From Marinobacter lipolyticus SM19 (GTDB lineage: Bacteria; Pseudomonadota; Gammaproteobacteria; Pseudomonadales; Oleiphilaceae): a stretch of 64,000 nt of DNA. The notes beneath the pieces were generated by a model that saw only the letters and a program-made list of their open reading frames with translations, was not told the origin of the DNA and did not search any database. Of this stretch, positions 15,009-16,706 are shown piece by piece (position 1 is the first letter of the stretch; every line of letters starts with the position of its first letter). A program made the position numbers and the translations under genes. The stretch spans positions 701,164 through 765,163 of the forward strand of contig NZ_KE007306.1 in assembly GCF_000397065.2 (NCBI RefSeq), read 5' to 3'.

Positions 15009-15040
15009 GGGACTCCAACACTAGAGTATGTAGCGGTGGT

Positions 15041-15117
15041 GGGGGGAGTCTTTTTTAAAAACGTCGCCTGTCTGAGCAAAGCGAGTTCAAGCGACGTTTT
15101 TAAAAAAGACTCCCCCC
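15041..15117. repeat. Long-hairpin element, type 1, copy A
   Basis: Arms 15041-15067 and 15091-15117 are a perfect 27-bp inverted repeat (outer end GGGGGGAGTCTTTTTT, inner end AAAAACGTCGC) around a 23-base loop (CTGTCTGAGCAAAGCGAGTT...). A second copy with altered but still complementary arms and a nearly identical loop lies at 46688-46776. It sits between urea carboxylase and the GntR gene and could also end transcription in either direction. Confidence 0.9.
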
Positions 15118-15167
15118 ATCGCCGCCGCCCCCAAAGTTCAGTGCAATGGTCACTAAAGAGCTATGTT

Positions 15168-15890
15168 ATGACTCGCAAGACTGCGGTTAAACGTAAAGAG
15201 AGTATGGCCGACCGGGTGTACGAAGCCCTTAAAGATGACATCTTTGAGTTTCGTTTAATTCCTGGTGACAAGTTCAGTGAAGGTGATGTTGGAACCAGAT
15301 TGAGCGCTAGCCGAACGCCGGTGAGAGAAGCGCTCTATCGATTGCAGAGAGAAGGCTACGTCGAAGTCCTGTTCCGTAGTGGCTGGCAGGTCAAGCCGTT
15401 TGATTTTCAGCAAGTCGAAGAACTTTACGATCTTCGTATAACGCTGGAACGGGCTGCAATGCACAAGATCTGCGCCCTCGACGAGCCACCACAAGCGTTG
15501 AGGACTTTAACGGCTATCTGGAACCCGGATCACCCGTCAGAGCGGGCAGTGGGAAGCACCGTTCGTGCTCTGGACGAAAGCTTCCATTGCGATTTGGTTG
15601 CCGCTGCTGGCAACAGGGAGATGACCCGCATTCATCGGGAAATAACTGACCGACTACGGATTATCCGCCGGCTGGACTTCACCCGGGATGATCGGGTGGA
15701 TGCGACCTACAAAGAACACTCCGAGATCCTGGCAGCAATTCGGGCTGGCGAGGCAACCGTTGCCGCGGACAAACTGACCCAGCACATTCGTACCTCACAA
15801 AAAGCCGTTCGCGAAATCACCATGGAACGAATTCGCGAGGCCGCAGAAGCTCATCGTGGCGGGCGAAAAATTGCTCCGGAGAGCGCATAA
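15168..15890 (+). CDS. GntR-family regulator (FCD type), likely urea locus
   Basis: The 240-residue protein has an N-terminal winged helix (residues ~15-80; YEALKDDIFEFRLIPGDKFSE and SASRTPVREALYRLQREGYV) and a C-terminal FCD-like all-helical domain (~90-225) with a histidine ligand candidate in KEHSEILAAIRAGE. The start at 15168 is chosen because longer versions read through the hairpin element. It follows the urea carboxylase gene on the same strand after 159 bp. Its position and the paired GTATACAAG sites at the urt/atzF control region suggest that it regulates urea use in response to a pathway metabolite; the ligand is unknown. Confidence 0.85.
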   Translation: MTRKTAVKRKESMADRVYEALKDDIFEFRLIPGDKFSEGDVGTRLSASRTPVREALYRLQREGYVEVLFRSGWQVKPFDFQQVEELYDLRITLERAAMHKICALDEPPQALRTLTAIWNPDHPSERAVGSTVRALDESFHCDLVAAAGNREMTRIHREITDRLRIIRRLDFTRDDRVDATYKEHSEILAAIRAGEATVAADKLTQHIRTSQKAVREITMERIREAAEAHRGGRKIAPESA

Positions 15891-15938
15891 ACACTGAACT
15901 CAGGTTCATTTTACGCCTACTCCACGGGCTCACAGATC

Positions 15939-15956
15939 TGTAGGAGATATCGCACA
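15939..15956 (+). promoter_or_regulatory. GacA-type upstream activating site
   Basis: TGTAGG-N6-CGCACA matches nine of twelve bases of the GacA box TGTAAG-N6-CTTACA. Its centre is ~64 bp upstream of the predicted start of the RNA at 16012, the distance usual for rsm genes. Confidence 0.7.
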
Positions 15957-15999
15957 CCATCGGGAGCGAATCTCCGATTTGTACAACCCCAACCCCCTG

Positions 16000-16005
16000 T
16001 AGAAT
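16000..16005 (+). promoter_or_regulatory. -10 box of the Rsm-type RNA
   Basis: TAGAAT stands about seven bases before the first hairpin of the RNA. A weak -35-like TTGTAC lies ~15 bp upstream (15979-15984), as expected for an activator-dependent promoter. Confidence 0.55.
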
Positions 16006-16011
16006 GACAAC

Positions 16012-16201
16012 TGTCAGGGATGACAAGCCAGCAGGGAAGTTGGTTCAGGGATGATAACTCCACGGATCAGGAGTTGCCCACGGAAATGGGCTGACAGGGA
16101 CGACCACCAGGGATGAAGCGCACAGGACGTGTGCAGCCTGAAGGATCAGGCGGGGGTCAGCCACGGATTTGGGGCCACATGGAATGTGGTCCTGTTCCGT
16201 G
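16012..16201 (+). ncRNA. CsrB/RsmZ-type small RNA sequestering CsrA/RsmA
   Basis: This ~190-nt stretch has no protein-coding frame but carries twelve GGA motifs, mostly in the loops of short hairpins: TGTCA-GGGA-TGACA (16012-16025), AACTCC-loop-GGAGTT (16056-16075), GCCCA-CGGAAA-TGGGC (16076-16091), GCGCAC-AGGAC-GTGTGC (16118-16134), CCTGA-AGGA-TCAGG (16137-16150), and a long final hairpin 16162-16201 with GGA at its tip. This is the architecture of RNAs that titrate the translational regulator CsrA/RsmA. A GacA-like box and a -10 box precede it. The 3' end is uncertain: no T-run directly follows the last hairpin. Confidence 0.85.
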
Positions 16202-16318
16202 CACTTATACCTTCCAGTTTTGCTCACTTGCGGCAATCACTCTCAAAGCGAACTTCCAGCTGACTGCGTTCTGGCACTTAACCATAACGATCGTTTTCAG
16301 ACTCAGGAGTTCGAATCC

Positions 16319-16588
16319 ATGAAACGCACCCCAATGATTGCCACACTGGTACTGCTGTTCAGCCTGTTCACAGGCTTTGCCCACGCTGAACCGGCTGCAA
16401 TCAACATCAACACCGCCGACATCGAAACCCTGGCCGGCCTCAACGGCATTGGTCAGAGCAAGGCAGAAGCCATTGTTGCTTACCGCGAAGCCAACGGCCC
16501 ATTCCAGGCACCGCAAGATCTGGCCAATGTGAAAGGCATTGGTGAGCGTACGATTGAGAAGAACGCTGACAGCCTTACCGTAAAGTAA
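16319..16588 (+). CDS. ComEA-like helix-hairpin-helix protein
   Basis: The 89-residue protein has a signal peptide (residues 1-24, ending FAHAEP) and one ComEA domain: NINTADIETLAGLNGIGQSKAEAIVAYRE and LANVKGIGERTIEKN form the two helix-hairpin-helix units. It is exported and probably binds double-stranded DNA without sequence preference in the periplasm, as in natural transformation; in many gammaproteobacteria the function is untested. The ATG at 16319 is the only start that gives the signal peptide. It lies directly downstream of the Rsm-type RNA. Confidence 0.9.
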   Translation: MKRTPMIATLVLLFSLFTGFAHAEPAAININTADIETLAGLNGIGQSKAEAIVAYREANGPFQAPQDLANVKGIGERTIEKNADSLTVK

Positions 16589-16706
16589 CGCTGTCCTGGC
16601 GGAGCCATCCGGGTTCCGCCCCTCTTCTCTGGTGTCGCCGCCAACGCGCTGTTAACCTCTCGCCCTGCTGACAAGGGATTGAGGTAGAGAACGTGGTGGT
16701 TACCCG

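Follow-up and report, generated by a model that had tools for sequence, protein, structure and literature searches.

What occupies the 428 nt between a GntR-family gene (ending at 15890) and a comEA-like gene (16319–16588)? The window, by which we mean the whole 64,000-nt stretch of DNA analysed, is part of a 4.02-Mb genome, and the closest relatives of its comEA are nearly all named Marinobacter. Genes for urea carboxylase and allophanate hydrolase lie farther upstream of the GntR/FCD regulator. An earlier note on this DNA had given the length of the gap, correctly, as 428 bp and had placed in it an RNA of the CsrB/RsmZ type. In the gap lie a GacA-type box at 15939–15956, the hexamer TAGAAT at 16000 and, on the + strand at ~16013–16203, a structured RNA; we consider it very probable, from the motifs, fold and comparisons described here, that it encodes a Gac-activated CsrA sponge RNA of the CsrB/RsmZ kind. 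The features of the region are as follows.

15036..15890, +: GntR/FCD-family regulator, upstream of the RNA; start codon uncertain
15939..15956, +: GacA/UvrY-type box, TGTAGG-N6-CGCACA, recognised by its fixed spacing and conservation
15957..15998, +: stretch from the box to the −10, partly conserved (consensus around gaGc.aaT.TCCGaTt; mean conservation 0.609)
16000..16005, +: −10 hexamer TAGAAT (conservation of block 16000–16007, 0.886)
16013..16203, +: predicted CsrB/RsmZ-type RNA of ~190 nt with 12 GGA, from fold, motif tests, covariation and covariance model R1
16027..16044, +: hairpin GCCAGC-AGGGAA-GTTGGT with a loop GGA (helices 1–2; 95–97% of cells paired)
16056..16075, +: hairpin AACTCC-ACGGATCA-GGAGTT (helix 3; both-side changes in 4 of 6 pairs)
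16076..16091, +: hairpin GCCC-ACGGAAAT-GGGC (helix 4; both-side changes in 2 of 4 pairs)
16118..16134, +: hairpin GCGCAC-AGGAC-GTGTGC (helix 5; both-side changes in 6 of 6 pairs, 82.4% of cells paired)
16136..16151, +: hairpin GCCTGA-AGGA-TCAGGC, with the best conserved GGA (helix 6; GGA 16143 at the exact position in 71 of 71 loci)
16162..16201, +: terminal two-part hairpin with an apical GGA and no U-tract after it (helices 7–8)
16204..16318, +: spacer between RNA and comEA, poorly conserved (median 117 nt, n = 71 loci)
16319..16588, +: comEA-like gene, 89 aa, with a signal-peptide-like N-terminus (by eye) and a helix-hairpin-helix
16598..16620, +: terminator-like hairpin 3′ of comEA, found by the terminator scan and also by the energy scan

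Motifs and fold of the predicted RNA

The segment 16009–16203 (195 nt) holds 12 GGA, the number that had been counted in the earlier note in ~190 bases. Such a number is mildly unusual, being equalled or exceeded in 26 of 2000 dinucleotide shuffles of the segment; shuffles of the whole window (n = 20) have maximal GGA counts of 10–13, and a stretch with 12 GGA occurs on the − strand of the window too. Because shuffles and another stretch of the window do as well, GGA density alone was rejected as proof. Each of the 12 GGA is preceded, one or two bases away, by an A, giving the form A(N)GGA, where shuffles average 3.2 and none of 300 reaches 12. Ten GGA are exposed, that is, mostly unpaired, against a shuffle mean of 4.0, and none of 100 shuffles reaches 10; the paired ones are those at 16070 and 16165. 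The fold of the segment (−81.3 kcal/mol, z = −3.7) therefore does not bury the motifs. The description in the earlier note of GGA mostly exposed in hairpin loops holds for the exposure and was overstated for the loops, since only 6 of the 12 are found in hairpin loops in the minimum-energy fold. Treated in the same way, E. coli csrB gave 19 A(N)GGA (reached by none of 300 shuffles) and 19 exposed GGA (none of 100), and csrC gave 13 A(N)GGA (none of 300) and 8 exposed GGA, a weaker result (10 of 100). The terminal hairpin region, 16162–16215, folds at −23.8 kcal/mol (z = −3.6). The 5′ end of the RNA is estimated at ~16008–16013, a conserved GTCAGGGATGA lying near this presumed start, and the 3′ end was set at the end of the conserved terminal hairpin.

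Conservation, covariation and promoter

In a DNA search of 97 genomes the RNA was found only in the window's genus, where 54 of 61 genomes, counting the window's own, had it; none of the 36 genomes of other genera matched. Of 73 distinct intergenic sequences, 71 were kept as the set of loci, L054 and L056 being omitted as mis-extracted or cut short, and the covariance model R1 was built from 38 sequences (A1) hand-picked from these 71 for diversity. R1 scores the window's RNA, which is among its building sequences, at 192.2 bits. Across the family it matched 132 of 163 genomes. The genus accounts for 121 (of 124, the three misses being 62–82% complete) and six other genera for the remaining 11. 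The figure of 121/124 assumes that the 11 non-matching genomes absent from the listing belong to other genera, which its sort order suggests. An order-wide sample gave 14 matches in 293 genomes, 12 of them in the genus, one in another genus of the family and one in another family. No convincing second copy was found by R1 in the same genome, the next match (17.3 bits) being coding-like by eye, in a search that a distant RNA with few GGA could escape; a plasmid collection gave no match to the RNA.

The conserved structure has 42 pairs, and over the 38 sequences 90.2% of the pair cells are standard pairs, against 21–40% when the structure is slid, a control favourable to the structure, which was drawn from the first sequence. 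Bases change on both sides in 23 of the 42 pairs, six hairpins are supported, and none of 500 shuffles in a test of covariation reaches any of five measures; the worst-pairing helices are 5 and 8 (82–84% of cells). The 71 distinct loci have RNAs of 131 to 249 nt with 8 to 17 GGA, and the alignment suggests that GGA hairpins were gained and lost to give these differences in length. The GGA motifs themselves are conserved in the relatives, a comparison proposed in the earlier note: every GGA of the window has some GGA within 3 nt of it in 58 to 71 of the 71 loci, and a GGA at the exact column in from 19 (16082) to all 71 (16143). More than half unpaired are 649 of the 878 GGA in the 71 RNAs. Fold z-scores for 20 chosen RNAs of the 71 (window included) average −2.6, 12 being below −2 and 8 above. 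Conservation is 0.806 over the RNA, 0.474 beyond it at 16204–16285 and 0.624 at 16286–16318.

Some loci depart from the common pattern. One genome of the genus (G203) has two RNAs (L154 and L160), each with its own comEA. In the genus g38 two loci, L286 and L287, have an expanded RNA upstream of comEA, with 26 and 30 GGA in 404 and 475 nt, that of L286 showing by eye repeated GCCTGAAGGATCAGGC-type hairpins. A MAG labelled Halomonas sp. SAT58 (L076), possibly mislabelled, has the Marinobacter arrangement of RNA and comEA, its comEA being 79% identical.

Upstream of the RNA, the box TGTAGGAGATATCGCACA at 15939 matches the GacA consensus at 9 of 12 positions. Its score alone is not significant, 24 places in the window scoring 9 and 2 scoring 10, and because other places score equally well the box alone was rejected as proof. 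It is credible because of its conservation and fixed spacing. In 66 of the 68 loci with enough upstream sequence a box (≥8/12) lies exactly 74 nt upstream of the start of the RNA alignment, the exceptions being L091, where the distance is 76 nt, and L033, where the box is absent. Its mean identity is 0.854 against 0.464 directly upstream, and variants such as TGTAAG-N6-CGCACA and TGTGAG-N6-CTTACA are seen in relatives. The −10 TAGAAT is exact in 57 of the 71 loci. Both elements had been picked out from the single sequence in the earlier note, and both are thus borne out by the relatives. On the + strand a scan for sigma-70 promoters yielded no consensus pair; the − strand had one, at 16080–16051. 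A possible additional regulator site lies within 15957–15998, around GAGCGAATCTCCGATTT.

The genome has one copy of CsrA. A GacA-family regulator adjoins uvrC (299.5 bits, cut-off 280), and a BarA/GacS-like hybrid kinase of 964 aa with sCache_4, HisKA, receiver and Hpt domains scores 846.3 bits, slightly under the BarA equivalog cut-off of 890. Thus CsrA, GacA and a GacS/BarA-like kinase, the proteins expected with an RNA of this class, are all in the genome; their presence, like the sequence and the conserved fold, is observed by computation. Together with the exposed GGA, the covarying hairpins, the box and the −10, they support the assignment to the CsrB/RsmZ type made in the earlier note. 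We infer from them that the RNA is transcribed, that GacA binds at its promoter and CsrA to the RNA, and that CsrA is titrated. Phosphorylated GacA would bind the box at 15939–15956 and switch on transcription from the −10 at 16000; the ~190-nt RNA would fold into a string of hairpins in which the A(N)GGA are held open, and CsrA dimers would bind these motifs and so be drawn off the mRNAs that they repress.

The comEA neighbourhood

The 89-residue product of the downstream gene matches Pfam HHH_3 (6.1e-22) and TIGR00426, the ComEA helix-hairpin-helix region (85.5 bits, cut-off 53.1), and is under the cut-off of the comEA model TIGR01259 (74 vs 152.35). A comEA follows the RNA on the same strand in all 54 genus loci checked and in all 30 genus loci taken from the R1 family search, 12 of the latter being in genomes already among the 54. 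At 20 further places (nine in the genus and eleven elsewhere in the family) it was found in 17; the three without it on the stretch fetched are in a g124 genome, on a g136 contig and at a weak coding-like match. L298, a weak match (23.1 bits) that is coding-like by eye, was rejected. Outside the genus comEA lies downstream in 9 of the 11 matching genomes, namely all six g38 genomes and the ones from g126, g131 and g135, which makes four genera out of six. The comEA neighbourhood, which the earlier note had not known for this RNA class, is therefore conserved in the genus and in several related genera, whereas a GntR homologue is present on only 29 of the 54 genus loci and is not a constant neighbour. 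A scan of 94 loci, known positives included, for a comEA-linked A(N)GGA-rich RNA outside f1 and f6 (a second family, described below) gave no convincing case among the better-scoring loci; of the next best, with 8 motifs, L178 and L131 are protein-coding by eye and L107 lies inside long open frames.

The 71 loci, each taken from the sequence upstream of a comEA, have a distance of 66–233 nt (median 117) between RNA and gene. Near the end of the spacer a conserved Shine–Dalgarno sequence, TCAGGAG, is itself an A(N)GGA, and the last 20 nt contain A(N)GGA in 69 of the 71. A CsrA hairpin at this site was considered and rejected, the folds in the window and in one relative being no better than chance.

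We treat a U-tract terminator as usual, not defining, for Csr/Rsm sponge RNAs. The longest T run in the 15 nt after the terminal stem is ≤2 in 55 of the 71 loci and ≥5 in 2, so that the usual U-tract Rho-independent terminator is lacking in most of them. An energy-based scan from the terminal stem to comEA found no intrinsic terminator candidate in 57 of the 71 loci and candidates in 14, of which those in L003, L076 and L093 are strong and coincide with the terminal stem; that of the window is weak (−7.3 kcal/mol). Relatives in other genera also have candidates, strong in L284, L158 and L288 and weaker in L285 and L286. A candidate is present in the 150 nt that follow comEA in 25 of the 71 loci, window included, and since it is in just these 25, either the scan has limited sensitivity or many ends are not intrinsic. 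In the window the hairpin at 16598–16620 is the sole terminator-like site of the terminator scan in 15880–16650, where shuffles average 0.9. Read-through, Rho or processing at the 3′ end of the RNA is possible. A published predictor of Rsm RNAs, as described in excerpts of PMC5568370, required a poly-U tail and a Rho-independent terminator; such a predictor would probably miss most of these loci, and the absent U-tract may be one reason why predictors of this kind overlook the RNA.

Because no intrinsic terminator was found between RNA and comEA, the transcript may in many Marinobacter species continue into the gene, and Gac signalling would then raise ComEA as well as the sponge, although we put this less firmly than the sponge itself. 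The RNA may thus double as a comEA leader. Alternatively, it could be mainly a cis-acting leader, whose GGA hairpins recruit CsrA for comEA alone with no meaningful titration in trans. We regard this as unlikely. Such a leader would account for the same-strand comEA at 54/54 and 30/30 genus loci (overlapping sets), the 57 of 71 loci without an intrinsic terminator before comEA and the A(N)GGA in the Shine–Dalgarno region of 69 of 71, and a comEA-like mRNA, PP_1813, is listed among the Rsm-bound RNAs of Pseudomonas putida (PMC7937890, in the text available from it). The 8–17 GGA would, on the other hand, exceed the need of a single-gene switch, the spacer is not conserved, and the Shine–Dalgarno region of the window folds no better than chance. 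Moreover, 2 of the 11 matching family genomes outside the genus have no comEA on the stretch fetched, and relatives in g126, g38 and g135 have a terminator candidate between the RNA and comEA. It is hardly credible that the GGA-rich stretch is conserved for some reason other than a regulatory RNA, for instance as a small protein-coding gene or a DNA element: the GGA count alone, only mildly above chance, would permit this, but the lengths of 131–249 nt change in steps not divisible by three, the pairs covary and the GGA positions are among the best kept.

The Gac-activated sponge RNA, then, is the reading that we prefer. A second family (f6) was reached via one weak R1 match (28.8 bits) and the comEA scan. 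In 8 of its 21 genomes the first 260 nt beyond the comEA stop hold at least 5 A(N)GGA, against a background of 1.7% of 864 windows from the same loci; the loci concerned are L232, L233, L234, L238–L241 and L250, where the A(N)GGA-rich sequence begins immediately after the stop codon and in several cases closes with a hairpin and T run. In genome G318 (L234) it has 34 A(N)GGA in 620 nt. The exposure of the motifs varies, being 5 of 6 in two genomes and 10 of 20 in another, and at least two genome pairs are closely related, which leaves fewer independent cases. No consistent GacA-type box was found near comEA, the best sites (7–9/12) being scattered over the 21 loci, and f6 is therefore not claimed to be Gac-driven near comEA. 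As a lead, its A(N)GGA-rich sequence looks like a CsrA-sponge 3′ UTR of comEA. Upstream of comEA in L250, tandem GGAAAT units are seen by eye on the opposite strand, beside a tRNA-like sequence.

A wider proposal is that sponge and comEA form one Gac-controlled transcription unit and that their link is functional and has recurred: the sponge would lie upstream of comEA in Marinobacter and four related genera, and would take the form of an A(N)GGA-rich comEA 3′ UTR in the second family. We offer it tentatively, as possible and rather doubtful. If true, one signal would free the targets of CsrA and raise a DNA-uptake protein together, and comEA mRNA would be a repeated host of CsrA sponges. The stable comEA neighbourhood gives, as a hypothesis, a concrete link between Gac/Rsm signalling and DNA uptake.

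Relation to known Csr/Rsm RNAs

No Rfam family reaches its gathering score in the window. The covariance-model search that the earlier note had proposed as a check went against it, giving no Csr/Rsm family above cut-off; the best match in the gap was PrrB/RsmZ (RF00166) at 16.6 bits, the cut-off being 44. CsrB (RF00018, cut-off 71 bits) was not matched anywhere in the genome, even with the limit at E 10, nor in the window, where RsmY (RF00195) was also searched. Matches to RF00166 elsewhere in the genome are all below cut-off, and the four inspected among the five listed are by eye protein-gene ends or coding sequence. Four further loci of the genus (L036, L042, L053 and L095) gave no Csr/Rsm family at E 1. 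In the other direction, R1 scores E. coli csrC at 12.9 bits (E 0.077) and csrB at 5.6 bits. A genome with CsrA and Gac proteins thus gives nothing above cut-off for RF00018 and RF00166 genome-wide, and the RNA described here probably provides the Csr/Rsm system of this widespread marine genus with an antagonist. Judged by its predicted features it resembles CsrB/RsmZ in anatomy; sequence homology or common descent with those families is unsupported. Among the matches listed in the open-licence literature there was no report of the Marinobacter RNA or of a Csr RNA beside comEA.

CsrB and CsrC of E. coli, which are under UvrY/GacA control, are like the Marinobacter RNA rich in A(N)GGA, which each of the three has in numbers well beyond those of its shuffles. 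They differ in their neighbours, csrB lying between yqcC and syd and csrC beside yihI, whereas the Marinobacter RNA lies beside comEA. The RsmZ/PrrB RNAs of Pseudomonas, with GacA-type control, are the best Rfam match of the region.

In Pseudomonas, rsmZ is organised with fdxA, and in Alcanivorax CsrR1 derives from the 5′ UTR of hfq and CsrR2 lies next to a ferredoxin gene (both from portions of PMC9788540); the latter two are, like ours, putative Csr-type sRNAs, and of a marine hydrocarbon degrader, but are tied to hfq and a ferredoxin gene, the Marinobacter RNA to comEA. According to excerpts of PMC9927453 and PMC5864184, Pseudoalteromonas and Alteromonas each have their own Csr RNAs. Pf1 of Pseudoalteromonas, with 21 GGA and a GacA-like box CGTGAGACATCTCTTACA, is similar in that its database matches are all confined to one genus; that genus is a different one, and 'comEA' is absent from the main text of the report (PMC9927453). 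The flagellin mRNA of Campylobacter jejuni is, by the title of PMC4894983, dual-function, and the Marinobacter RNA would be comparable as an mRNA leader and sponge if it reads into comEA, but unlike that CsrA-titrating mRNA it would be a leader behind a GacA-type box, with 8–17 GGA. Beside these systems, the comEA association appears to be the unusual part of what is, as far as its conserved features indicate, a genus-wide sponge RNA that Rfam does not catch.
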